From a virus, in IMG/VR virus record IMGVR_UViG_3300046167_000523, positions 1 through 42,143 of that record: a DNA stretch of 42,143 nt; one strand, 5' to 3'. A program made the position numbers and the translations under genes. The notes beneath the pieces were generated by a model. The model saw only the letters and a list, made by a program, of their open reading frames with translations, made no database searches and was not told where the DNA came from. This document shows positions 1,704 to 42,143 of the stretch, in pieces; the first letter of the stretch is position 1, and every line of letters begins with the position of its first letter.

Positions 1704-1747
1704 CAACATACCCCATTTGCCCCAGATTTACCCATAGGTATAAGGAC
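1704..1747 (+). promoter_or_regulatory. late-arm promoter element, copy A
   Basis: This 44-bp element matches the reverse complement of 37465-37508 at 39 of 44 positions. It contains TTGCCC (1717-1722), a 16-bp spacer and TATAAG (1739-1744), a credible sigma70-type promoter facing the terminase and structural genes. Spacer and upstream bases (CAACATACCCC, TTACCCATAGG) are conserved as strongly as the -35 and -10. This suggests an activator or a modified polymerase also reads them. The other copy faces primase-helicase. Confidence 0.65.
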
Positions 1748-1771
1748 AACAAACGTACTAACAACAATAGC

Positions 1772-1879
1772 TATACTAAAGCCTAGCTTAAGCCAAGCAA
1801 CAAGTTACAATAAAGAATTAATAATTTATTTAATCCTTGTAGTCTAACTTAAGCTAGACTTAAGCTAAGCTTTAGTATA
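1772..1879 (+). promoter_or_regulatory. AT-rich inverted repeat in late-arm leader
   Basis: Arms at 1772-1792 and 1859-1879 are complementary at 20 of 21 positions (TATACTAAAGC...). They enclose an AT-rich 66-nt interior that includes a near-palindrome (1841-1860) with CTTAAG at its centre. It lies just downstream of the promoter element, so it would be in the 5' leader of the late transcript. A related CTTAAGCT-containing hairpin follows the second promoter copy. It could be an attenuator, antiterminator or replication element. Confidence 0.45.
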
Positions 1880-2003
1880 TCTATAGTACGAGTCCACCCA
1901 ACAATGGCAGTCTCTAGTCTAGATCGGATTCGTCGTGGTCGAAAAGACCCCTAGCACCGTCCCTATGGAGTATGCTGCCTACATTACAGCTAAGGAATCT
2001 AGT

Positions 2004-2384
2004 ATGTCGGAGTCGAAAGAGGAGTCGAAAGAAGTTAAGAAGGGTCGGCCCAGTAAGAAAGACCTAGAGTCTACTACCTTAATGACTAAAAGAGAGCAAG
2101 CAGCAGCAATCAAGGAGTACAGACAGCGACTGCTTCTACATCCGGGGTCACCTAAACTAATAGACAAGCTATTCAGCACAGCTTTTGATGACGAAAGTCG
2201 TAATCAGGCAGTAGCTATGAAGATATTAGCGGATCGTGTCCTTCCAGCAGCAGGGTTTACCTTCGACGGAAAGACAAATAATCAAGTAAGCATTAACATT
2301 ACTGGTCTTAACGACCCTAGTTCTGGGGTCACTATTAGTGGGTCGAGCGGAGAGGTAGAGGATGAAGACGTGCACGATATGTAA
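2004..2384 (+). CDS. terS: small terminase subunit
   Basis: The small subunit recognises phage DNA and delivers it to the large terminase for packaging. The 126-residue product starts with a charged SESKEESKEVKKGRPSKKDLE segment typical of podoviral small terminases. A helical core (MTKREQAAAIKEYRQRLLL...MKILADRVLP) and a Gly/Ser/acidic tail follow. I chose the ATG at 2004 because AAGGA lies 7 nt upstream. In-frame GTG (1935) and ATG (1965) lie further upstream but have poorer sites. Position before the large terminase supports the call; sequence identity alone is modest. Confidence 0.7.
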   Translation: MSESKEESKEVKKGRPSKKDLESTTLMTKREQAAAIKEYRQRLLLHPGSPKLIDKLFSTAFDDESRNQAVAMKILADRVLPAAGFTFDGKTNNQVSINITGLNDPSSGVTISGSSGEVEDEDVHDM

Positions 2385-2939: not shown

Positions 2940-4190
2940 ATGAAAGTAAACTTGTCGTTGATACCATGGCAAGAGAAAGTAATAGCAGACCCGGCTCGAT
3001 TTAAGGTAATCGCTGCTGGTCGTCGATGTGGTAAGACACACTTCGCGGCTGTTACTCTTATCTTAGCGGCACTGGACGGTAACCCCGGCGGTGTCATGTA
3101 CGTAGGGCCTACTCAGGGACTCGCAAGAGACCTGATGTGGGATAAGCTGTTTGAGCTGGCCGGGGATATTATTGAATCCTCTAACGTGAACAATCTAGAA
3201 GTAGTCTTAGCTGGTGGTAATAAGATAGCCCTCAAAGGTAGTGATAGACCCGACACGCTACGAGGCTACAGCTTAAAGCACTTAGTCCTAGATGAGTTCG
3301 CATTCCACAAGGAGGGAGTCTTCGATACTATTCTCCGGCCAGCTCTTGCAGACCGTAAGGGTACAGCCTTATTCATCTCCACACCAGAGGGACGTAACAG
3401 CTTCTATGACGTCTACAAGAATGGAGAGACGAATAAGACAGGCTGGAAGTCATGGCACCTGACGTCGCTAGACAACCCCTTGCTTGACCCCGAGGAGCTA
3501 GCAGCCGCCAAGGAGACTATGGCTGGGTGGCAGTACCGTCAGGAGTTCGAGGCATCATTCGATGCTAAGGGTTCTGAGTACTTCGATCCCGAGGCCTTTA
3601 AGTACTACAACGAACTCCCTAAAGAAACTTATGATTACTACATCGCATTGGACTTAGCTGGATTCGAGACAGACAGAGGCAACAAGACCAAGCGAAGAGA
3701 CGACTCAGCTATGGCTGTTGTTGCTGTAGACTACAGAGGCACGTGGTTTGTAGAGGAGATCAAGTACGGTCGGTGGAGTCTAGACGAGACAGCCCAGAAC
3801 ATATTCGAGGCAGTCGCTAAGTACAAGCCCGTTAAGGTCGGAATAGAGAGAGGCATTGCACAACAGGCTGTGATGTCCCCACTACAAGACATAATGAGAA
3901 GAACAGCCAGAGTCTTCTACATCGAGCTATTGTCCCATGGTAACCAGAAGAAAGAAGACAGAATACTATGGGCCTTACAGGGACGACTAGAGCATGACAA
4001 GATTGAATTTAAACGAGCTGATTGGAACCTCGAAGTTGTGGATCAAGCTTCAGCCTTTCCTTCTAAACTCGTACACGATGACTTACTTGATGCCCTTGCT
4101 TATATTGATCAGCTGGCTCAAGTCCCTTATAGCAGCGGCCTAGACGTCCAAGACGACTACGAGCCATTCGATGATGTCGCAGGATACTGA
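2940..4190 (+). CDS. terL: large terminase subunit
   Basis: This is the ATPase-nuclease that packages DNA into the prohead. Walker A is AAGRRCGKT (residues 25-33) and Walker B is HLVLDEFAF with D118-E119. A coupling-type motif (FISTPEGRN) follows. The RNase H-like nuclease half has acidic residues in IALDLAGFETD, in VGIERG and near DDLLDALAY. At 416 residues it is compact but complete. The ATG at 2940 has GGAGG upstream. It overlaps the possible early starts of the next gene. Confidence 0.93.
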   Translation: MKVNLSLIPWQEKVIADPARFKVIAAGRRCGKTHFAAVTLILAALDGNPGGVMYVGPTQGLARDLMWDKLFELAGDIIESSNVNNLEVVLAGGNKIALKGSDRPDTLRGYSLKHLVLDEFAFHKEGVFDTILRPALADRKGTALFISTPEGRNSFYDVYKNGETNKTGWKSWHLTSLDNPLLDPEELAAAKETMAGWQYRQEFEASFDAKGSEYFDPEAFKYYNELPKETYDYYIALDLAGFETDRGNKTKRRDDSAMAVVAVDYRGTWFVEEIKYGRWSLDETAQNIFEAVAKYKPVKVGIERGIAQQAVMSPLQDIMRRTARVFYIELLSHGNQKKEDRILWALQGRLEHDKIEFKRADWNLEVVDQASAFPSKLVHDDLLDALAYIDQLAQVPYSSGLDVQDDYEPFDDVAGY

Positions 4191-4751: not shown

Positions 4752-6777
4752 ATGGATGATATATTTCAGGACGATGTAGAAGGACACAAAGAAGACCTAG
4801 CAGCTTGGGTCAGTGCTAAGGTACAAGAGTACCGAGACCACTACCAGTCTAACTACGCTGAGAAGCACGACGAGTACATGCGTATCTATCGTAACCAGTG
4901 GGCTAAGCAAGACAGCTCAAGAGACACAGAGAGGTCTCGGCTCATTGCCCCTGCTACGTCGCAGGCGGTGGAGTCCAACGTAGCAGAGGTAGAAGAAGCC
5001 ACCTTCGGAAGAGGGAAGCTCTTTGACATCAGAGACGCGGTAGAGCAACAGGACAACCCACAGGCACTGGCTAATATTAACTACCTCAAGAACAAACTAC
5101 ACGATGACTTCGCCCTAGGACGCATACGCTCCTCTGTTGCTGAGGTACTTGTGAACGCAGCAGTGTTCGGCACAGGCATGGCTGAGATCGTTCTGGACGA
5201 GGTAAAAGAACTCAAGCCATCTGAGCGTCCTACTATGGACGGCGCAATGACAGAGTACGGCGTTGAGGAAACCTATCGTCCTCTCGTTAAGCTCAACCCC
5301 GTAATGCCTAAGAACTTCTTGATTGATCCTTACGCTACCAACGTAGATGACGCACTCGGCGTAGCAGGTAGATGAGTTCGTTAGTCGGCACGTTGTTGAG
5401 GAGCTACAGGAGCAAGGGGTATACTTAGACGTATACGTAGGTAACTCAGTAACAGATACAGAGATACAGATAGACCCCATGGAATCCCAAGAGGGTGACA
5501 AGATCCGTCTGACTAAGTGGTACGGTAAGGTCCCAAGGGAGCTACTACTGGAGCACGCTGACGAGGAAGACATAGAAGAAGAGAGTCACTACATAGAATC
5601 CGTTGTTGTATTAGCTAACGAGGAGACAATCCTTAAGGCTATGCCCAGCCCCTATATGTGTAAGGATCGTCCTATTGTGGCTTTCCAGTGGGATATTGTA
5701 CCTAGTCAGTTCCATGGCCGGGGTGTCTGTGAGAAGGCATACATGAGCCAGAAGGCTTTAGATGCTGAGCTACGGGCGCGTATCGACGCACTTGCACTGA
5801 CTACGCATCCTATGATGGCAGTAGATGCCAGCCGTATGCCTAGAGACAAGAAGCTAGAGGTACGACCCGGACGGATGCTACTCACTAACGGTAACCCCGC
5901 CGAGGTACTCCAGCCCCTTACGTTCGGCAACCTCAATGCTATCACCTTCCAGCAGGGCGCACAGCTCCAGCAGATGGTGAGTCAAGCAACGGGATCAGCC
6001 GACCAGAGCATGGCTCAGGTACAGAATGACGTAACCGCTGCTGGCATGAGCATGTCCCAAGGGGCGCTCATTAAGCGACAGAAACGTACGCTAGTGAACT
6101 TCCAAGAGAACTTCTTGATACCGTTCATCCGTAAGACAGCGTACCGTTACATGCAGTACGACCCCGAGAACTACCCAGCAGTGGACTACACCTTTGTTCC
6201 CTTCAGCTCCTTAGGCGCTATGGCGCGGGAGTACGAGGTAGCTCAGTTGAGTCAGATACTACAGGTTATACCGCCTGAGTCGCCTGCTCATGCTGCTATT
6301 GTCAAGGGCATTGTGGATCACCTCAACGTTTCTAACCGAGAGGAACTCATAACCGCTATCGAATCCGGGCAGCAAGGGCCATCGCCTGAGCAGCAGCAAA
6401 TGGAACAGCAGCAACAGCAAGCACAGATGGGTCTCATACAGGGACAGATAGATCTGCTTACTGCTCAATCCATGGAAGCAGGATCACGGGCGCAGAAGAA
6501 CCACGTAGAAACGCAGCTCATGCCGCAAGAGATGACCATGAAGTATTCGGACATCGACGGCGACGGCGCAGCAGACGACAAAGAGTTCGAGAGAAAGATA
6601 CGACTCAGCGAGATGCTCCTCAAAGAGCAAGAGCTACAGCTGAAGCAAGACATCGAACTCGAAGGAGCCAAGGGTAGAGCAGAAGCTGAACTCATCAAGT
6701 CACTAGAACAGGGACTAAGCAATGGAGCAACTAACAATGCTGGCCCTTCTCAAGCGGCTCCAGCAGCAGCTCAATGA
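4752..6777 (+). CDS. portal (head-tail connector) protein, frame broken by one base
   Basis: The portal forms the dodecameric ring at the capsid vertex. The N-terminal part (4752-5375) and the C-terminal part (open from 5368 to 6777) join in sense if one G in the run at 5367-5368 is removed: ...ALGVA then VDEFVSRHVVEEL. The joined protein would be about 674 residues, the usual size for T7-like marine phages. It has an N-terminal helical region, a ATSQAVESNVAEVEEATFG segment, a middle beta-rich domain and a Gln-rich C-terminal helix region. Order terminase-portal-fibre supports the call. The extra G is most likely a sequencing error. Confidence 0.85.
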
Positions 6778-7210
6778 AGTAACAAAGAAGGAGGGGCCTT
6801 CCGGGCCTGCGGGATCTAATGGGCCAGTAGGTCCTAAGGGTGACGCAGGCTCATCCGGTAAGCAAGGCCCTCAAGGCCCTAAGGGAGACAAAGGATCTGA
6901 TGGGCCTAAGGGCGCTGATGGTGCGGATGGCCCTGCTGGTGAGACTGGAGTAGGCGTTGAGAGCGTCTCACAGGCCGCTGACGGGGATCTAGTCTTTACC
7001 CTTACCGATGGCACCGAGGAAGTCGTAGAGTTCCCCCTAGGGCTTTACACGGCCTCTGAGAGCCATACGGTAGTGGTGGCAGGCCAAGGACCAAACGGAA
7101 ACGGACAAGGAGGCCCTAGCGGACAAGGCGGCAGGGACGTTAATGTAGACGGTGGAACGGCGGCGTCTATATACTTATCAACCCAGCTAATAAACGGAGG
7201 CAAGGCATAA
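6722..7210 (+). CDS. short collagen-like virion protein
   Basis: A 162-residue protein with an N-terminal helix, about twenty Gly-X-Y triplets (residues ~25-76, such as GPKGDAG and [10 protein letters not shown]) and a C-terminal domain rich in Gly/Asn/Ser. Collagen-like repeats form trimeric fibres in phage tail fibres and structural proteins. It overlaps the end of portal by 56 nt in another frame. Its stop overlaps the next start (TAATG), so it is translationally coupled with the larger collagen-like fibre. A trimeric fibre or neck role is inferred. Confidence 0.75.
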
Positions 7211-9660
7211 TGGCTGACATTATTCAGATCAGGAGGGACACTCAGGTACAGTGGCTGGCCGTAGATCCTATATTAGCACAGGGCGAATTCGCAGTAGAGA
7301 CAGACACTAATCAATTCAAGATCGGAGATGGCTCTTCCGTCTATAGTTCACTTGACTACGTAACTCAAGGACCCCTAGGTCCCGAAGGCCCTCAGGGTCC
7401 CGAAGGCCCCATAGGCCCCATAGGCCCCATAGGTCCCGAAGGCCCCGAAGGAACCGGAGACACTGGCCCTCAGGGAGACATAGGCCCTCAGGGTCCCGAA
7501 GGTCCCGAAGGCCCTCAGGGAGACACTGGAGACACTGGCCCTAAGGGAGACACTGGAGACACTGGCCCTAAGGGTGACACTGGAGACATAGGCCCCGAAG
7601 GCCCTCAGGGAGCTGGAGACACAGGCCCTAAGGGAGACACTGGAGACACAGGCCCTAAGGGAGACACTGGAGACACAGGTCCTGCCGGGCCAGCAGAGGT
7701 TTCTACTGACGCTGATAACTACGCAACTCTAGGCACTGACAATAAGATATATGTACCTACTCCTGTAGATACTTCAGCAAGCTTATCTCTCCAGTGGATG
7801 TTTAGGAACCCTCTGGGCAGTGCACCTGAGCCTAATTACTTCTCTACTAACAACGTAGACAACGGATTAGTCACTGCGCTTAACGTGTCTTATGTTGCGT
7901 TTCCTAACAGAGAAGTCGCTAACTTGCTTGGTGAGCTAAAGACAGGAGACAAGATATATCTACAGCAAGGCACTGACGAATCAGCCTACGCAAACTTCGA
8001 TCTGACAGGGGAAGTAATAGACAACGGAACGTACTACACAATCCCTGTCTCAGCCTATGACAATGGCCCTGATGAGTTCGAGGGTCAACAGCTATGTTCC
8101 TTCCTTATCTTTAGGACTGCTTCTGAAGGTGGCGCCGGAGGCGGAGGCTCTGACGAGAATGCACTGTCCTTTGCCAAGGGTGCAGGTCTAGCGGTAGAGC
8201 AAGGTTTACTGGCAGCAGACGGACAACCCGCTAAGACGGTACTAGCCGTTGGCCCTACGAACACAGGTAAAGTCCAAGGCTGTAGCTTAGGCGGCGGTAA
8301 CGTGGTCGAGGTCTACGCCAGTGGTGCTGACTTCAACGCAGGCACTGTACTGTACCGTGAGTTCATGGGTGCAGGTGAACCTATCTGCTTTACGGGCCTG
8401 AGTACCGGCGCAATCATAACGTCTACTCAAGGCTTCTATGGCATGAGCGAGCAGCTAAACGGAAGTTTTGAAAGCCCTATGCCGCTGCTAAGTCTAGGCT
8501 TGGCGTTCACAAGTACGTTTGTTTACTGCTTCCGAAACTCACAAAGCTTCCCCGGATCGGGTGCCAGCACAGGGCAGATCACGATTATTAACGGTGCTCT
8601 CCCCTCTACGGTGACATTCACTAGGAACGGCAACGAAGTTGGAGGTCAAGCCCCTAGAGACTTAGCCCCCTTTGAGGCTTGCTACTTTTACAGTGACGCT
8701 AACGGCGAGTTTCTAATCGAAGCTACAAGCCCTGTCATGGCGTGTGTTCAAGCCTACATGGGAACTAACCCACCCTTAGAAGTTGGCGATCCGGGGGATG
8801 CTGGTCAACGATTCTATGACGCACGTTTGGTTATGCCGCTGACTAATGACGGTATGACATGGCCGCGTTCTGGATTCGTAAGTGCGCCCTATGCGGGTAC
8901 GGAGTCTAAGTATTACGTGCGCGATGGTGTGACTGGAGACTTCCCAACGGTAAACCCCGGCTCTCCCGTAGACTTCGACGCTGGTGGTAGCACAGGCGCA
9001 GCCGACCAAGACTACGAGCCAAGGGGCTGTACACGCCTAAGGGTAGCAGGTCTAGTATCAGCCTACTCTGGCGCGGACTCAGCGGGTCTTGAGGCATCAC
9101 CTATGATTCCTGTAAGCGCTATGTCTCAGGTTGTAGCTCAGCCTTTCACTATTGCTGACAACGGTGACGGAGGTAACTCAGGTGTCGCTATTGGCAGTCC
9201 CTACGAGGGAACCGCTAGGATTTACCAGTGGAACACAGCGACAGGCGTTGCTGACTTAGCCTACACAGTACCGCTAGGTAGAGGTGACGCAGGGCAGGGT
9301 ATAGCCCCAACGGCACCGGAGGATCAATACATCCCGTGTGCTGGCTTGGTAGCTAACGAGACAACACTGGGCGCTACTGATCCCTCAGTGATTGAGCTGG
9401 TAGGCACGTTAAACCCCGGCTATATCGTAGCTGATGTGCCTATTACGGTGGTTGCTCAGAACGGCGACCCCGGCACGATCCCACCAATACGCTCTCAGAA
9501 TGGCACAACCACTCAAGGCATTGTCTCGGACGATGACGAGACTCTGATGCTTGGCTGGACGCCACCGCAGAAGAAGGCTGAGATCACTGAGGATACTGAT
9601 GGATTTACCCGCAAACGAGTGCTTGATAACACAGGCACACCAACATGGCCTCTAACCTGA
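7210..9660 (+). CDS. large tail fibre with collagen-like shaft
   Basis: An 816-residue protein. The N-terminal ~50 residues ([17 protein letters not shown]..., [18 protein letters not shown]) match the domain that opens many phage fibres and resembles the N-terminus of the major tropism determinant. Residues ~53-158 are Gly-X-Y repeats built from [12 protein letters not shown] and GPIGPI units. The remainder is a beta-rich, Gly/Asn/Thr-rich domain likely to be the receptor-binding or decorating part. Start ATG overlaps the preceding stop. Confidence 0.8.
7370..7685 (+). repeat. collagen-coding low-complexity repeats
   Basis: Repeated DNA words (GGCCCTAAGGGAGACACTGG, CCCGAAGGCCC) encode the Gly-X-Y shaft of the large fibre. 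Several units are identical at DNA level, so copy number can change by slippage or recombination. Confidence 0.85.
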
Positions 9661-27964: not shown

Positions 27965-28115
27965 TTAGATCCTCCTTGATCTTCTCTAGTACAGCCAGAA
28001 GCATGTTCCTTTCTATTAGGATTCCGCGCATGTAGCTATGGCAAGCCATGATGTAGAAGCCAGCAGCGATCAAGCCGCCAGCCCCTACACCTAATGCCCA
28101 TGTTGATACAATCAT
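27954..28115 (-). CDS. small membrane protein (53 aa), holin-like
   Basis: A 53-residue product with one N-terminal membrane segment (TWALGVGAGGLIAAGFYIM) and a charged helical C-terminus (LLAVLEKIKEDLNED). The start overlaps the reductase stop (ATGA), and the stop overlaps the next gene by 11 nt. Size and topology fit a pinholin, a class III holin or an inner-membrane spanin. No sequence family is recognised. Confidence 0.7.
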   Translation of the reverse strand: MIVSTWALGVGAGGLIAAGFYIMACHSYMRGILIERNMLLAVLEKIKEDLNED

Positions 28116-30008
28116 TCTGCACTCCCTACTATCTCACATACCCCACCAGTACAGGCAAGCTCTTGACTGCTAGTCGTTGTATCCTCTAGCTCATAACTAG
28201 GGAACACTGACCAGTCCACATCAGGGAAAGCCTTGACAGCCTGAAGGTATTCTTCTTCTGTCGTCTGCTGGTACGGTGCCTGTTGGTACGTACCGTTATC
28301 ATATGGCAGCATACTAACACCACTCATAATATCCCAGTTGTCCCATACCCACTGCATCATACCGAGGTAGTTGTCATCCGTGTAGTACACAGTGATGCTG
28401 GGCTTGTGCTCACACCACGCCTCTTGGTAGATCTTCCATAGTCGTAGTTGCTCCAACGCATCCTGCTCGTCCCTCGTCACCGCTGTATCTGGTGTCTCGA
28501 TAGGGAAGCTGAAGATGGTTGTCGTGTCCGGCTTCATGACACACGGCTCATTAGGTACGCCTTGGTCACGCATGAAAGCGGTCATTGGATCCTTGTTATC
28601 CTGTCGCACTGTACGTGTGTAGTACCTAGAGTATGCAGGGTGAATGCCCTGAGCTGCACAAGGCTAGCTGGCTCACCGTACCACTCGGCTTGACACACGT
28701 GATGGCTACAGACACAGGGATCTTCAGCTGCTTAGCCCACTTCTTGTTCACTGTGATAGCGTGTTCCCGCATGGTGGTTAACCATTCGGTTAGCTTCTCG
28801 TCGCCTTCGCTGCCGTTAAGCACAGGGTGATCCATGATGCCTGTTAAGCTCACACCCAGCAGCCTCTCCTCCTCACAGTTGTCCTTCCATATCTTACGCA
28901 GGTAGCGGAAGTCAGTCAGAGTGGACTGCAACGTACCAAAGATAGTAGCAGCGTCCACCTTGTGAAGCAGATCAGCTAAGCTGTCGTCACTTCGCACGAT
29001 AACCTCGGATAGATTGCAGAACTCAGACGGTCTAAGGATGATCTCGCTGCAAGGATTACAGCCCCACTTGTGTCCGGTCTCTCTGCGTCCGTGTGAGTCG
29101 ATGATCTTATCCGCAGCTTCACGGTTGAAGAACCCTCGCTCCCCACTGTAGCTTTCGTACAGGGCCTTGGACTGGTTCATGTAGAAGTGGAAGTCAGGCT
29201 TCTTCTCGTAGCAGGCTGAGTTGTTAGCCAGCGCACGTTGCCCGTCTGTATTCCACCAAGCACCAGACTTAGCTGTAGCCATGCGATCAGAAGTAGGGGA
29301 CGATAGGGATATGAGGGCTGAACGCCTGACCCCGCCCACTACCACAATGGCAGCACACTTACAAATGAGATCGTGTGCCTCAAGGTCTGTCAGCTTACGG
29401 CCAGCAGCCTTACGGAACAGAGCTACTGTGAAGTTGAACAGATCCACCAGCGGAGCAGGGCCTGACGCACGACCACCAAAGGTCTTGAGCTTAGCACCAG
29501 CAGGGCGTACCTTACTCACGTCCCACGTAGGTACCTCACCAGTCCACAGCATAGCGAGTAGCTGCTTGAATGCCTTAGCCCAGCCCACCTTGGAGTCAGC
29601 AACAACAATCACTGAGTCCGTATCGTGGAACTCCTCAGCCACGATGGGTAGCTTAGCAACCTCATCACGCTCACAGCTGAAGCCCACGCCTGTCCCGCAA
29701 AGTAGGATGTACATGCATTCATCGAAGGCCCGAGGGTGATCGACGCTGAGGTAGGCACAGTTGTATCCAGCTACGTGGTCACGATCTAGCGCAGGGCCAG
29801 CAGTCATGAGAGCGCGCATGCTAGGCACAACGTCCAAGTCCACGATCATCTTACGTAGGGTGTTGGCTTGCATGCTACTGAGTACACCCTTGTCTTTCCA
29901 GTAGTTAGTATAGCGAGAGCACGTCTCGTCCCATGTCTCCCGACGTCCAGCATACTCGATCCATCTGGCGTATCGGGACATGGCTATGAAGGTTTGATAA
30001 TCATTCAT
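28112..30008 (-). CDS. nrdJ: class II (B12-dependent) ribonucleotide reductase, frame broken by one base
   Basis: It makes deoxyribonucleotides using adenosylcobalamin. Seen: GYNCAYLSV and EFCNLSEV with the disulfide-forming Cys pair, NPCSEIIL with the active-site Cys and Glu, the LLCGTGVGFSCER segment, PSGTVSQL, and a C-terminal CTGGVC redox pair. The monomeric Lactobacillus-type layout fits the joined size of ~631 residues. At 28646-28649 an extra base (GGG where GG fits) ends the first frame after SSGHSP. Removing it gives SGIHPAYSRYYTRTVRQDNKD, matching the family. Start ATG 30008 overlaps a 28-aa gene. Confidence 0.92.
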
Positions 30009-30091
30009 GAAAGGTCCTTGTAGATTGCAATACAGAAGAGGACTAGCATCCCAGCTAGCCCGGCGAATAGTCCAAAGAAGAAGCAGCTCAT
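30005..30091 (-). CDS. 28-aa membrane peptide
   Basis: An ATG at 30089-30091 overlaps the stop of the upstream gene (ATGA), and the stop overlaps the reductase start in the same way. The product, beginning MSCFFFGLFAGLAGMLVLF and ending YKDLS, is a single membrane segment. The two perfect ATGA junctions are the main evidence that this tiny frame is translated. Unknown function. Confidence 0.65.
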   Translation of the reverse strand: MSCFFFGLFAGLAGMLVLFCIAIYKDLS

Positions 30092-30300
30092 AGTATCTTC
30101 CTAGCAAACACACGGTCAGCCAGATGGCTGTTGTAGCAGTGCTCTAGCTGGAAGAAGAAGAGAGCATCAATGAATCCAACAGCTCGTACCCTGTTCTCCC
30201 GCCAGCATCTACCGCTGAGTGTTTCGTTAGGATCGCCGAAGAACACAACCGCGTTAAGCAATTGCGATAGTGCTGTAGCAATGTTAATTAAGTACATCAT
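30088..30300 (-). CDS. conserved small phage protein (DPNETLSGR motif)
   Basis: A 70-residue protein with an N-terminal hydrophobic helix (INIATALSQLLNAVVFF). A GDPNETLSGRCWREN motif and a FIDALFFFQLEHCYNSHL segment follow. I recall the D-P-x-E-T-x-S-x-R...HC pattern in many phage proteins of unknown function. ATG 30300 (or 30297) overlaps the upstream stop; the stop overlaps the 28-aa gene. Confidence 0.75.
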   Translation of the reverse strand: MMYLINIATALSQLLNAVVFFGDPNETLSGRCWRENRVRAVGFIDALFFFQLEHCYNSHLADRVFARKIL

Positions 30301-35698: not shown

Positions 35699-35759
35699 GG
35701 GCATGCTCCTCATCCTGTTTAGTTTGTAGTTCTAGTACGTACGCTCCCATCTTACTCAC
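35550..35759 (-). CDS. small conserved protein nested with polymerase start (69 aa)
   Basis: A GTG start (35757-35759) overlaps the primase stop (GTGA) and follows a strong GAGGAGG site. The first residues MSKMGAYVLELQ match the opening of small proteins found before DNA polymerase in many podoviruses (memory). The frame runs 149 nt into the polymerase gene in another phase. The N-terminal ~20 residues are well supported; the C-terminal part may be chance or an early stop lost. Confidence 0.55.
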   Translation of the reverse strand: MSKMGAYVLELQTKQDEEHAHVPAYQESSGRYRNEPSMESYLVRGSRVREWRPRTGNNTRRVIQSTGWD

Positions 35760-37390
35760 AGTATTACATCCTCCTCCTCTGGTGGTGTGTACTCGCTTAG
35801 TCTGCCTGTCTGTCCGCTGTACAGTAAAGCCCCTGCTGGCCCAGTGATCCCACTAAACCTGTTCTTAAGGACTCGCATTGTAGTTGTGTTCCGTTCAGTA
35901 GCATCGTCTGCTTGCCCGTTCCGTTCCAAACCAATAACAAAATCAGAAAGCTGTGCAATAGAAGCACTGCCCCTAAGTTGCGCCACTGATGTGACCGCTC
36001 CTTCCTCATGCGCTTTACCCTCCGGTCGTTTCAAGTGTGACACCGCGAACAGCGTGATGCCTGTGTCCTGCGTTAGACTGCGAAGCTTAGTCATGATCTC
36101 ATCCAATGCCTTGCGCTCGTCGCCGTGCTGGCCTCCCGATACGAGGATAGAGATGTGATCTAGTATGATTATCTTACAGTCCAGAGCCTTAGCCATGTAC
36201 CTAACACGAGCCACGACCTGATCCACTGTCGCTCCGGTGTCGAAGCTAGCGTCCATAATCATGAGCCTGTCGTCTCCGAACACACGCTCGAAGCTGTCCT
36301 TGTACTCCTGTGAGCCACGCTGTACCGTAGAGGTAGGTAAGTGCACAGGAGTGCTTAGGTCTACACCCATGAAGCCCTCAGCAGTGCGCTCTATGCTCTC
36401 CTCCATGAACAAGCAGCCTATCTTGTGCTCGGTAGTGTTCTTCACGTGCATGACTAGCTCACGCAGGATAGATGACTTACCTAGACCCGAGCCAGCACAC
36501 ACGGTGATGAGTTCAGTAGGACGGAAGCCGTACGTCAGCTTGTTCAGTGCCTCCCAAGGGTAGTCACCCGTGGCAGCGGGTCGGTCAGCGTTGAGCCTCT
36601 CCCATAGGTCGTCCTTGCTGATGATTCCCTCAGGTACGAAAGCGGCAGCAGAAAAGAAAGCACGAGTGAACTCCTCAGTCTTACCCTTCTTGAGGTAGTC
36701 GCACGCGTCCTTACCTACCGATGCGTCCAGCTTCATGATGCGTAGCTTACCTGCGAACACGTCAGCTATCTTAGCTATCGCCTCCTGTCCTGCGTTGTCT
36801 GCATCAGGACAAAAGACAATCTCCTTGTACCCATCTAGGAAATTATAGGAAGCCTTCACATCCCGACCAGCAGCGGCAGCTCCACCCTTGAGGCTAACGA
36901 CCGCAGTCTTGCTGCCAAACATCTGGTCAGCAGCCAAAGCGTCTAGCTCTCCCTCGGTTATTACTATTCTATTCTGGTCGTGATTGCCGAAGCGTTGCTG
37001 ACCGAACAATCCAGCAGACTTGATGTCCCCTACTGCACGGAAGCCCTTGGGAGAGACAGTCCGTAGCTTGAATCCTACGGGTTCCGTGATTCCCTCAGCA
37101 AAATAAGGATACATTTGGACGTTACCATCCACAATGACACCGTACTTAGAGCAGGTTCCTGTGGTTAGCGACCTATCTGGGATAGCTGTAGCTCCCTTAG
37201 CATTCCAGACTCTAATTAATCTATCTAGTTCTCCACCTGATGTAAGCGTTACATGACTCACAGTAGACTCTCCTTGTTTGTGTGTGTTGCAGCTAAAGCA
37301 GAAGCTATGACCGTCATCGTAGGTGGCATTAGCATCTGAGCTACCGCATGAATCGCAAGACCCCTTACTAATAAGGGTAGACTCTTCCAT
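35756..37390 (-). CDS. primase-helicase (T7 gp4-like)
   Basis: A 544-residue bifunctional replication protein. A zinc finger (C12, C15, C31, C34) selects primase sites. The TOPRIM domain has VITEGELDALAA and FCPDADNAGQEA. The helicase part has Walker A CAGSGLGKSS, IIILDHISIL, and a HLKRPEG...SVAQLRGSASIAQLSD region typical of DnaB-type hexamers. Promoter copy B and a hairpin leader lie directly upstream, with AGGAG before the ATG. Confidence 0.93.
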   Translation of the reverse strand: MEESTLISKGSCDSCGSSDANATYDDGHSFCFSCNTHKQGESTVSHVTLTSGGELDRLIRVWNAKGATAIPDRSLTTGTCSKYGVIVDGNVQMYPYFAEGITEPVGFKLRTVSPKGFRAVGDIKSAGLFGQQRFGNHDQNRIVITEGELDALAADQMFGSKTAVVSLKGGAAAAGRDVKASYNFLDGYKEIVFCPDADNAGQEAIAKIADVFAGKLRIMKLDASVGKDACDYLKKGKTEEFTRAFFSAAAFVPEGIISKDDLWERLNADRPAATGDYPWEALNKLTYGFRPTELITVCAGSGLGKSSILRELVMHVKNTTEHKIGCLFMEESIERTAEGFMGVDLSTPVHLPTSTVQRGSQEYKDSFERVFGDDRLMIMDASFDTGATVDQVVARVRYMAKALDCKIIILDHISILVSGGQHGDERKALDEIMTKLRSLTQDTGITLFAVSHLKRPEGKAHEEGAVTSVAQLRGSASIAQLSDFVIGLERNGQADDATERNTTTMRVLKNRFSGITGPAGALLYSGQTGRLSEYTPPEEEDVIL

Positions 37391-37407: not shown

Positions 37408-37459
37408 AAGCTTAAGCTGAGTAAGAATTAATACTTAATTACTCAGCCTCAGAAAGCTT
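37408..37459 (-). promoter_or_regulatory. hairpin in primase-helicase leader
   Basis: GCTGAGTAA (416-424 of the 37 kb block) pairs perfectly with TTACTCAGC (37439-37447) across a 14-nt AT-rich loop, with outer AAGCTT arms at 37408-37413 and 37454-37459. It begins about where transcription from promoter copy B would start. Like the late-arm leader it contains CTTAAGCT words. It could be an attenuator, antiterminator or 5' stabiliser. Confidence 0.5.
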
Positions 37460-37464
37460 AAGTA

Positions 37465-37508
37465 GTCCTTATACCTATGGGTAATTACGGGGCAAGAGGG
37501 GTATGTTG
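37465..37508 (-). promoter_or_regulatory. middle promoter element, copy B
   Basis: On the minus strand this 44-bp element repeats the late-arm element (39/44 identical). It has TTGCCC (37490-37495), a 16-bp spacer and TATAAG (37468-37473). It overlaps the last codons of the upstream HNH/AP2-like gene and faces primase-helicase. Conservation in coding and non-coding settings shows it is not a coding repeat. Confidence 0.65.
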
Positions 37509-38651
37509 ACGCTTTAATGTCTTAATAAACAAAGACTTAGCAGCTTCAGCCTCCTCCTCGGTGTCGAAGTCGCCAATACGTATAGCCTTCCCAGACACCA
37601 TGACCCTAGCCCTGTACTTTGTGTCGTAGTCTAGCCTCGTCCTGTCCTCAGCAGAGCTTCCCATCGCCACGTTACTAGTAGTCTCTAGCATTAGATTGTC
37701 CCAGCTAAGATCAGACAGGTCGCCATTGATACAGTGTATCGTTGCATCCTTGGGGTCGATGCCTGTGACGAGCATGTATACAACACGGGAAGTAGCAAAC
37801 AGACCACCATCCACCTGCGTCTTGAGCTTGCCATCTTTACGTACCGTGTAAGCCTCTGTACCGCTAGCTGAGCGTCCTCGGGCCACAGCCCATACCAATG
37901 TACCAGTCTCGGGATCGTAGCTGAGAAGCGCATTCAGGCGCTCCTGAGAGGGCATGTCCTTAGCGTTAGACTGTGCCTTACTTAGCTTGACACCCTTGGC
38001 TTCCTCCTCGATAGCCCGTGTCACCCCTCGGAACTCCTGCATACCACGCCAGCGCAGCATGTACGCCTTGTGCTCGGCATACTTCCGGTAAGCCTCCGCC
38101 TGTACCTCACCTAGGTATAGCTGCACCTGAGCGTCACTCAGTCCGCGCCTGTGCATGTCACCCCGCAGGTTAGGGTTACGCAAAGCCTCGAAGAACGCCG
38201 CAGTTCGTCCCTTGTAGGCGCTGATGCCTTCCATATAGAACAGACCTACACTGGCGTCCTCTCGGGAAGCGTCCTGAATTGCTGCGTCAGCCTCCCGACT
38301 CTCGACACTTCCGACATTTATTTCCACGTTTCGAGGGGAGTTAGACTCACCCGACTCCGTGTCTAGCTCAGAGGGTAGCTCAGCCTTGTGCATATGCAGC
38401 CAGTCGATACAGTCCTGAGCCTGATCCTTGCCCATGTTGCTGGGCTTTCGGTAGTACATATGCCTTGCAGGAATAGTGGGGTCACGCATCATTTTGGTGC
38501 GCTGCTTCCGGTCTACTGGCGTCGATGCCATAGCCGCAGTGAACCCACGGAGATTACCGATAGAAGTCAACTTGTGGTTTATGTTGTCCTGTTTTAATTG
38601 CTGTGCGTCCAGCGTGTCGCCTTCGTAGCCCTCGAATAGCTCAGAGTTCAT
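37485..38651 (-). CDS. protein with C-terminal HNH/AP2-like region and unknown N-terminal domain
   Basis: A 388-residue protein. The C-terminal ~150 residues resemble phage homing HNH proteins: LLSYDPETGTLVWAVARGR, a TSRVVYMLVTGIDP segment, TIHCINGDLSDLSWDNL, and an AP2-like KYRARVMVSGKAIRIGDFDTEEEA strand-helix end. The usual 'IDHxNGDxxDNR' is changed (IHCINGDLSDLS), so catalysis is uncertain. Residues 1-230 are unrecognised: charged and helical, with KKQRTKMM-like basic and SREADAAIQD acidic parts. A fusion to an early regulator is possible. Confidence 0.7.
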   Translation of the reverse strand: MNSELFEGYEGDTLDAQQLKQDNINHKLTSIGNLRGFTAAMASTPVDRKQRTKMMRDPTIPARHMYYRKPSNMGKDQAQDCIDWLHMHKAELPSELDTESGESNSPRNVEINVGSVESREADAAIQDASREDASVGLFYMEGISAYKGRTAAFFEALRNPNLRGDMHRRGLSDAQVQLYLGEVQAEAYRKYAEHKAYMLRWRGMQEFRGVTRAIEEEAKGVKLSKAQSNAKDMPSQERLNALLSYDPETGTLVWAVARGRSASGTEAYTVRKDGKLKTQVDGGLFATSRVVYMLVTGIDPKDATIHCINGDLSDLSWDNLMLETTSNVAMGSSAEDRTRLDYDTKYRARVMVSGKAIRIGDFDTEEEAEAAKSLFIKTLKRQHTPLAP

Positions 38652-40557: not shown

Positions 40558-40746
40558 TTATGCCCCTGCCTTGTTGAATGATAGAAAAACGTTTGCCATG
40601 GGTCGCTCGTCGCACCATTTATGAGCGAACGTCTCAGCTGCACTAAAAGCCGGTGTTTCGAAACTCTTCCAGCCGTCAATCCTCACCTCCCATAACTTAG
40701 AGATAGTGTTGAATTCTACTAACATAAACTTCTGGTGATCCCTCAT
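40558..40746 (-). CDS. early protein (62 aa), complete copy
   Basis: A 62-residue product starting MRDHQKFMLVEFNTISKLWE. ATG 40746 has a strong AGGAGG site. It mixes beta (KFMLVEFNTISKLWEVRIDGW) and helical (AAETFAHKWCDERP) parts. The terminal repeat boundary (40687) falls inside it, so only its first 20 codons are repeated at the left end. Unknown function. Confidence 0.72.
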   Translation of the reverse strand: MRDHQKFMLVEFNTISKLWEVRIDGWKSFETPAFSAAETFAHKWCDERPMANVFLSFNKAGA

Positions 40747-40836
40747 GGATTGACCTCCTTTCCTCGTTGGTTGTTGTTTGTAGCTTCCTGTTATGCCCAC
40801 CTCAGGGGCATTTCGACCAGTAGCTAGCTGGTCTCA

Positions 40837-41115
40837 TCAGATAGGATTTCCTGCAAGTAGTACTTCACCCTTTCGGGTACAGACGTCCACTCCAAGCGCT
40901 CTTAAGCGGCTCATGGTTGTTCGGGTGGGCCAGTTGCGGAGCGTGTTGACCATGACCAGTGCTAACCCGTTGCGCTGTACTGTGGCGATATGGTGACCGT
41001 GCAAGAACACATCCGACCCGCCTGTACTCTCGACGAAGTCAACCCGCGTGTTGTCCTTTGACCAATCCCTAGCGCTCTCAATAGCCTCTAACATTTCCTT
41101 TTCGATAAGTCTCAT
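40837..41115 (-). CDS. conserved small early phage protein (92 aa), right copy
   Basis: Encodes exactly the same protein as 151-429 despite three nucleotide differences. In the concatemer it lies between the 44-aa and 62-aa early genes. A conserved TRTTMSRLRAL core is visible; function unknown. Confidence 0.8.
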   Translation of the reverse strand: MRLIEKEMLEAIESARDWSKDNTRVDFVESTGGSDVFLHGHHIATVQRNGLALVMVNTLRNWPTRTTMSRLRALGVDVCTRKGEVLLAGNPI

Positions 41116-41249
41116 TACACAATCCTCATTAGCTCAGCCGCTTTTTCTTCAGCTTGCCATTTAGTGTCAAACCTTACGATCTGGATGCCGTTGCACATCA
41201 CGTCCCACATCTTAAGACCGCTCTTAACTTTCTCGACTGTAATGCTCAT
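41115..41249 (-). CDS. small early protein (44 aa), right copy
   Basis: Same 44-residue product as 429-563. TAATG overlap with the 92-aa gene. Beta-then-helix pattern; unknown function. Confidence 0.7.
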   Translation of the reverse strand: MSITVEKVKSGLKMWDVMCNGIQIVRFDTKWQAEEKAAELMRIV

Positions 41250-41273
41250 TTGTAGATTCCTTTTGGGTTGACT

Positions 41274-41405
41274 TCAGAGTTTAGCTTTCGTACGCCCCGT
41301 CTTTTCAGACTTAGTAGCGACTCGGTTATAAATGTCGTACTTGGCATATGCTGCGGCTGTACGTGCAGCTCTATGGCCTCTGTTTAATGTTGCATCGTGT
41401 TTCAT
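41274..41405 (-). CDS. 43-aa basic early protein, intact copy
   Basis: The first gene after the early promoters. MKHDATLNRGHRAARTAAAY begins a strongly basic 43-residue protein that ends EKTGRTKAKL. The start has GGAGGG upstream; a longer 60-residue frame from 41456 is possible. Being first in the early transcript and basic, it could bind nucleic acid or a host enzyme. The left copy has a frameshift. Confidence 0.68.
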   Translation of the reverse strand: MKHDATLNRGHRAARTAAAYAKYDIYNRVATKSEKTGRTKAKL

Positions 41406-41667
41406 GTTTCGGCCCTCCGTAGACCTCTTCAGTGACGCGGTAGCAGCGCCATACATGAACCCCCATACATTACTTACTAAGTATCATCGTGGGCTGCATC
41501 GCCGCAGCCTAGTGCGCAGTGTGGCTATCCCCGCTGAACGGTTAAGACTCACACCCTGACCTAGTAGTTAACCTATGTTTAACTAGACTCCTTCCGGAGG
41601 GGGTTTCCCAGTCTATCCCTCTCGGGGCTGGCATCTGATTCAGGGCTCAGTAGGGCCGATGTAGTGA

Positions 41668-41696
41668 ATCTTACGTGGTACTTTCGATCTTGTCAA
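41668..41696 (-). promoter_or_regulatory. early promoter 2, right copy
   Basis: Same TTGACA-17-TAAGAT as 983-1011. In the linear genome this copy is the one that faces the full early/middle operon. Confidence 0.75.
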
Positions 41697-41785
41697 CCCT
41701 TTTAACGATCAGCTTGAAAGGCGATCAACTCTTGGTGGGTCTACCGCTGAACTTCCCGATGTGGGTACGTTCAGCCGATGAGTGC

Positions 41786-41814
41786 ATATTAGGGCATGCA
41801 GACCATGGTGTCAA
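41786..41814 (-). promoter_or_regulatory. early promoter 1, right copy
   Basis: Same TTGACA-17-TAATAT as 1101-1129, again facing the minus-strand early genes. Confidence 0.75.
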
Positions 41815-41937
41815 CACCTATTAGAACTTTATTTATATTTATTTTATGGTAGTTGGCAGTACCACAATGTCTTATATTATGCACAAATAACTATCCTATA
41901 GATCAATACATAAGACATACATCACAGGGCTGGATGG

Positions 41938-42068
41938 GCATGGCATAGGCAAGGCATCGGATAGCGTTAGCGCTTGCCGCACGTGCCATGCTCCCGCGTG
42001 CAATTGTTCCACGAATGTTCCACGAATGTTCCACGAATGTTCCACGAATGTTCCACGAATGTTCCACG
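41938..42068. repeat. hairpin and 11-bp repeats, right copy (5 full units plus partial)
   Basis: The long imperfect hairpin (41938-41991) and TTCCACGAATG array (42007-42068) repeat the left arrangement but with six TTCCACG copies in place of nine. DNA beyond the array diverges from the left copy. Confidence 0.88.
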
Positions 42069-42143
42069 CTGGAGTGCGTTCCCTTTTGGTACTCACTGGC
42101 GCGGATCGGGGGCGGCGGGGGGCCTGTGCGGACTCGTGAATCG

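Follow-up and report, generated by a model that had tools for sequence, protein, structure and literature searches.

The window (the whole stretch of DNA analysed, 42,143 nucleotides) is a virus record of 42 kb whose direct terminal repeats, at 1-1493 and 40687-42143, match imperfectly. Its structural arm runs rightward and its replication arm leftward, and the two meet near 27.4 kb. The repeats, about 1.46 kb each, are not identical, and an 11-bp tandem array within them, ATGTTCCACGA, differs in copy number between the two ends. A 44-bp element stands upstream of both the structural arm (plus strand) and the primase-helicase (minus strand), as an earlier note had described. The relevant features are:

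1704..1747, plus: element, late-arm copy; position-matched homologues in L004, L089/L090 and L135
1704..1711, plus: box 1 (genome-specific), late copy, from column analysis and the flank profile
1717..1720, plus: box 2 (TTGC, then invariant CCC), late copy, from column analysis and co-variation with the AP2 sheet
1729..1733, plus: box 3, late copy, from column analysis and co-variation
1734..1747, plus: invariant core ATAGGTATAAGGAC, including the -10-like TATAAG, 100% identical in all clade copies
1764..1887, plus: leader hairpin after the late copy, z = -8.3
1935..2384, plus: first gene downstream of the late copy, probably the small terminase, assigned from position and conservation
2940..4190, plus: large terminase
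35756..37390, minus: primase-helicase, downstream of the primase copy (phrog_239, E 7e-166)
37411..37460, minus: leader hairpin following the primase copy, with z between -1.8 and -3.6 across four relatives
37465..37508, minus: element, primase copy; homologues in L008, L009 and L036
37479..37483, minus: box 3, primase copy, from column analysis and co-variation
37492..37495, minus: box 2, primase copy, on the same evidence
37501..37508, minus: box 1, primase copy, on the same evidence
37485..38651, minus: candidate element-binding protein (HNH/AP2), 388 aa, from co-occurrence and co-variation; last gene before the primase copy
37563..37619, minus: AP2 strands 2-3, residues 345-363, with R349, M351, A356 and R358 (alignment)
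37674..37787, minus: degenerate HNH bba-metal motif, residues 289-326 (IHCINGD, against IDHxNG in active relatives)
37788..37889, minus: HNH arm, residues 255-288, which co-varies with boxes 1 and 3
41668..41696, minus: putative early sigma70-like promoter TTGACA-17-TAAGAT, terminal repeat
41786..41814, minus: putative early sigma70-like promoter TTGACA-17-TAATAT, terminal repeat

Elsewhere in the window, a frameshift divides the portal gene in two (4752-5375 and 5479-6777; one 672-aa frame in the related phage G001), and the RNR gene is likewise split (28112-30113). Both splits are likely to be sequencing or assembly errors. The protein at 7210-9660 has an Mtd_N domain and collagen-like repeats, and is a probable tail fibre.

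The two copies are identical at 39 of 44 positions and both contain TTGCCC-16-TATAAG, as had been claimed. The late-arm copy reads CAACATACCCC-AT-TTGCCCC-AGAT-TTACCC-ATAGGTATAAGGAC and the primase copy CAACATACCCC-TC-TTGCCCC-GTAA-TTACCC-ATAGGTATAAGGAC. A search of the whole record allowing 3 mismatches returned exactly these two sites, and none with the reversed control. The pair forms the longest inverted repeat within the window, and the chance expectation for such pairs is about 8e-10. The promoter pattern by itself is unremarkable, with 4 matches at 2 mismatches against 2.5 expected, and the significance therefore rests on the whole 44 bp. The minus copy is only partly intergenic, its first 24 bases overlapping the 3′ end of the HNH/AP2 gene.

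A search of sequenced phages at the DNA level found no close relative of the window. Relatives of the primase and the terminase are numerous in IMG/VR, although as fragmentary contigs. Most matches to ATAGGTATAAGGAC in IMG/VR are chance. Related phage genomes do carry the element at the same places, as the earlier note had proposed to check. In the clade of the window, elements occur before the late arm and the primase at positions matching those in the window. The primase copies are CAACATACCCCTAGTCACCCGTAATTACCCATAGGTATAAGGAC (L009), AGTGATACCCCTCTTGCCCCATAATATTTCATAGGTATAAGGAC (L036) and GGCAGACACCCTAGTGGCCCGTTATTCGGTATAGGTATAAGGAC (L008), and late copies were found in L004, L089/L090 and L135. 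Of the late copies used in the comparisons, three are paired with their genomes solely by shared sample.

Comparison of these copies shows the element to be made up of three hypervariable boxes, at intervals of about 11 bp, followed by the invariant core. The core ATAGGTATAAGGAC and two CCC triplets are constant in every copy of the window clade, and the three boxes vary strongly (mean identity approximately 0.3-0.75). In the late copies, the 100 bp downstream are 97% identical, whereas boxes 1 and 3 are only 30-42% alike. The suggestion that TTGCCC is a conserved -35 hexamer does not survive this comparison. The sister phages have GTGGCC, GTCACC or TAACCC at that position, varying with the AP2 sheet of the protein discussed below, and there is therefore no conserved -35 box. 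The conserved TTGACA-like hexamer that sigma70 requires 16-18 bp from the -10 is thus lacking from the element, while the -10-like hexamer is present: TATAAG is invariant in the window clade, and TATATTAT or TATAAG occurs in a sister clade.

This sister clade (G001, G003/L012, G004, L017 and L020; primase 74% identical) carries the element before the late arm, before the primase and also before the DNA polymerase. Its letters are the same in every copy found within a genome, and read GACAAGAGGTC in G001, GACAAACGCGGT in G004, GACAACGGGGGT plus TTACG in L017 and (GA)CAAACTGTC in L020. The polymerase copies of G001, G004, L017 and L020 end about 15 nt before the start codon, which would give a very short mRNA leader with the ribosome site at the 5′ end. 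A third lineage, G019, has three copies of CGCTAATTCACCTTACCATGTCCAC(C/T)TCAGTACTAT, before the primase, the polymerase and the late arm. The letters look unrelated to those of the other clades, and the three copies are 35-36/36 alike. The core in all clades is TATA(A)G followed by purines.

When the columns are considered one by one, both clades behave in the same way: boxes are alike within a genome and unlike between genomes, and spacers track the locus. In the G001 clade, permuting the labels against the primase copies gave box agreement as good as observed in 2/120 cases for the polymerase copies and 1/120 for the late copies; the same permutation of the spacers gave 90/120 and 114/120, that is, no effect. 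Boxes that follow the genome and spacers that follow the locus imply a phage-encoded factor acting in trans on the boxes. The element is thus more than a sigma70 promoter, as had been supposed from the two window copies.

The same pattern bears on the idea that these are ordinary sigma70 promoters of the host, with recombination keeping the copies alike and hitch-hiking accounting for the agreement with the AP2 gene. Recombination is common in phages, and the primase copy, which overlaps the 3′ end of the AP2 gene, is physically linked to it. However, the late copies on the opposite arm and the polymerase copies about 1.7 kb away match equally well. Gene conversion fails as a cause, since it would move the spacers along with the boxes, and the near-identity of the flanks downstream of the late copies, set against their divergent boxes, also speaks against it. 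We regard this explanation as very improbable.

The late copies of L004 and L135 combine a box 1 of the L036 type with a box 2 of the L008 type and a box 3 of the window or L036 type. They look recombined, which suggests that the three boxes can change separately. The contigs concerned do not include their HNH-AP2 genes.

Two candidates for the factor had been named in the earlier note, the HTH protein (31819) and the HNH/AP2 protein (37485). Only the second stood, its residues co-varying with the boxes. The HTH protein was rejected: its HTH half is missing in G001, whose elements are matched, and phages with differing elements share the same recognition helix. An element acting at the RNA level was also considered and rejected. 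Relatives do not retain the TACCCATAGGTA palindrome, and searches for Rfam families and tRNAs gave no match. The leaders do fold (the late leader of G001 is also strong, z = -4.1), but in the close late copies compared the late hairpin shows no double-sided compensatory change, and we therefore treat the leader hairpins as accessory.

The HNH/AP2 protein has a helical N-terminal part (residues ~1-215), a degenerate HNH_3 domain and an AP2-like C-terminus. It matches phrog_99 over residues 210-379 (E 4e-30), and its C-terminal 163 residues are homologous to HNH-AP2 proteins (L303-L308) at 27-36% identity. The order HNH_3 then AP2 places it in the HNH-AP2 superfamily by descent. In members of the window clade the HNH_3 score reaches the Pfam cutoff or falls just short of it, and in others it is below. 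AP2 was assigned by alignment and by the predicted three strands and helix, the score against the Pfam AP2 model being below threshold. A profile of the phage AP2 (A2) matched the structures 7wq5 (6e-8) and 1gcc (AtERF1; 0.05). AlphaFold gave a poor model of the full protein (pLDDT 38.6) and a model of medium confidence for the C-terminal part alone (pLDDT 74.2), with an HNH arm and an AP2 of three strands plus a helix. A fold search with this model gave weak matches, with I-HmuI at the top (probability 0.99, E 0.066) and the AP2 of TEM1 at E 1.2.

No known relative was found for the N-terminal 215 residues. Sequenced phages yielded no relative covering 80% of the protein, and bacterial genomes none of full length. 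In IMG/VR, full-length relatives occur in eight further phages. All of these bear the element, and the full protein was found in no phage without it. More distant homologues (N-terminal identity 24-28%) occupy the same position in L011 and L032/L033, and L018/G019 has a weaker homologue there that matches in the middle and HNH parts. Searching outward from a distant homologue for HNH-AP2 relatives added one fragment only.

In 9/9 proteins upstream of the primase, the catalytic DH is replaced by HC, HY, a gap or another pair, and the motif is also absent from the homologues in L011, L018 and L032. The DH...N motif is intact in homologues of the active type, among them the products of other HNH-AP2 genes that these phages carry. 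In G001, a gene beside the split RNR (L154, 9093-9467) encodes a further HNH-AP2 protein whose DHINGN motif is intact; this phage probably has an active homing endonuclease alongside the dead one.

These observations make it highly unlikely that a working site-specific nuclease or nickase acts on the element, whether to start replication or in packaging or homing. Membership of the homing endonuclease superfamily and the I-HmuI fold match, weak as its E value is, would favour a nuclease. The window protein nevertheless lacks the catalytic His/Asp-Asn of an active homing endonuclease, as does every protein in this position. Such an enzyme is also expected in a genome without an intact target, whereas these genomes have 2-3 matched sites each, which would be suicidal for a cutter. 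In addition, every copy has a -10-like core and lies ahead of a gene read in the same direction. The best reading is that the protein is a domesticated, cleavage-dead homing endonuclease that would retain its DNA-reading surfaces.

Co-variation between protein and boxes was analysed in nine proteins from two clades by a distance test with within-clade permutation, in which the p values are modest and carry no correction for phylogeny. Box 1 follows the HNH arm (r 0.91, p 0.003), box 2 the AP2 sheet (r 0.90, p 0.017) and box 3 the HNH arm (r 0.65, p 0.033). In the same test the N-terminal part does not co-vary with the boxes. Individual pairs illustrate this well. The window and L036 have the AP2 sheet and box 2 in common, and differ in the arm and in boxes 1 and 3; the window and L009 have the arm and boxes 1 and 3 in common, and differ in AP2 and box 2.

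R349, M351, A356 and R358 align with E160, R162, R170 and W172 of AtERF1 respectively, positions that we take to be DNA contacts in AtERF1. L009 and G004, which belong to different clades, agree at all four contact positions (E,R,L,V), and both carry TCACCC. The first variable residue, which aligns with Glu160 (1gcc, phage AP2 profile), pairs with a box-2 base as Arg-G, Glu-C or Gln-A in 9/9 proteins. These are classical residue-base pairs. Of the 24 possible residue-base assignments, 1 fits the data; permutation gives p 0.0008 over all genomes, and a weak p 0.05 within clades.

The factor that reads the boxes is thus almost certainly the HNH/AP2 protein, going by sequence comparison, and its binding to the element is strongly supported by co-variation. 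Co-variation is likewise the evidence for the sequence-specific promoter recognition expected of a phage-encoded activator.

The polymerase involved could in principle be an unrecognised phage RNA polymerase or sigma factor, with the element as its promoter. TATA followed by purines, seen in all clades, does resemble the start sites of single-subunit polymerases. However, PF00940 is absent from G000, G001, G002 and G019 in a search where the positive control (P-SSP7) worked, and the right arm has no large unassigned ORF. The box variation, moreover, tracks residues of the AP2/HNH protein rather than another protein. Of the explanations discussed here this is the least probable. The earlier note had likewise seen no phage RNA polymerase in the window, and PF00940 is negative there too (P-SSP7 control 2.7e-69), so that a phage-encoded polymerase, which a promoter of that type needs, was not found.

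The TATAAG core, the fixed location ahead of operons and the absence both of a -35 and of a T7-type polymerase together point to host-polymerase promoters that would be activated by the HNH/AP2 protein. We think it probable that the element is a promoter-like site at which this domesticated, cleavage-dead protein activates early-to-middle/late transcription. Its gene, the last of the early block, would probably be read by the host RNA polymerase from the sigma70-like promoters in the terminal repeat, although sites resembling TTGACA-17-TAATAT/TAAGAT are no commoner than in shuffles. Once made, the protein would bind the three recognition boxes, which would replace the -35 region (about -47 to -18), with the HNH arm reading boxes 1 and 3, the AP2 sheet reading box 2, and both co-evolving with the boxes. 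It would then recruit or position the host polymerase at the weak core, presumably with transcription starting at the core, and the primase/replication genes and the structural arm would be switched on. That the N-terminal domain contacts RNA polymerase is a guess, as this domain has no known relative.

The main rival is repression, in which the protein would cover the -35/spacer and delay primase and late transcription, or shut it off again. Boxes 2 and 3 do overlap the -35/spacer positions, where sigma would also sit, which suits either role. CapR, a known domesticated homing endonuclease, represses, and I-TevI can also do so (PMC10448857). Against this, box 2 covers no conserved -35 hexamer (GTGGCC, TAACCC and so on), and the core therefore seems so weak that a repressor would be superfluous. 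Moreover, a lytic phage has to express its primase and late genes, and the binder is produced immediately ahead of these. We consider repression unlikely and infer activation. The HNH/AP2 protein most likely works as a switch that turns on the replication and late genes, and the middle/late switch role fits the arrangement of the element.

On balance, we favour the wider view that a lytic phage lineage runs its early-to-late programme by an AP2 factor derived from an HNH-AP2 endonuclease, with separable, fast-diversifying reading heads and a simple residue-base code. This would show a possible way for a phage that has no RNA polymerase of its own to time its genes, and the natural variation yields a testable recognition code for AP2 and the HNH arm. 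It is also a caution that phage proteins annotated "HNH endonuclease" can be regulators. In the open-access literature searched, there was no description of a phage's own AP2-HNH protein with co-evolving boxes at 2-3 operons.

Several known systems are comparable in part. Promoters of the lambda CII type have a poor -35, are read by the host polymerase with a phage activator, and have sites about one helical turn apart around the -35. The window element resembles them in being a proposed host-polymerase promoter with a poor -35 and a phage activator, and differs in that it has three boxes whose letters change with the genome; the HTH protein CII is also unrelated to the candidate reader here. 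Homing endonucleases of phages of the AP2-HNH (IPA-HNH) type share the homologous C-terminal 163 residues, with the HNH arm and AP2 in the same order. Unlike them, the window protein lacks the DH/N motif, has an extra 215-aa N-terminal domain, has 2-3 targets in its own genome and occupies a fixed place upstream of the primase.

CapR, from the ICP1 satellite PLE, is a domesticated T5orf172 endonuclease acting as a repressor, in which the DNA-binding part of a homing endonuclease is re-used to control phage gene expression; I-TevI has a dual role (PMC10448857). The window protein is similar in that a homing-endonuclease DNA reader would be re-used in phage gene control. CapR, however, is a satellite-borne repressor of the T5orf172 type with a Zn finger, whereas the window protein is an AP2-HNH encoded by the phage's own gene and matched to 2-3 operons.

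Plant AP2 factors have long been proposed to derive from HNH-AP2 endonucleases (Magnani 2004, as cited in PMC10448857 and PMC1524935), and together with CapR and I-TevI this proposal makes the domestication idea plausible. The present lineage looks like that step in a phage: the cutter dead, the reader kept and the targets made into promoters. As in the plant AP2/ERF factors (AtERF1, WRI1, TEM1), the AP2 fold is indicated by profile alignment and the variable residues lie at contact positions. Unlike those factors, the phage protein has a single reduced AP2 and still has the HNH arm, which would serve it as a second reading head. The phage case would be a domestication separate from the origin of plant AP2/ERF, and, if true, its independent prokaryotic counterpart, with the natural variants as an evolutionary series.
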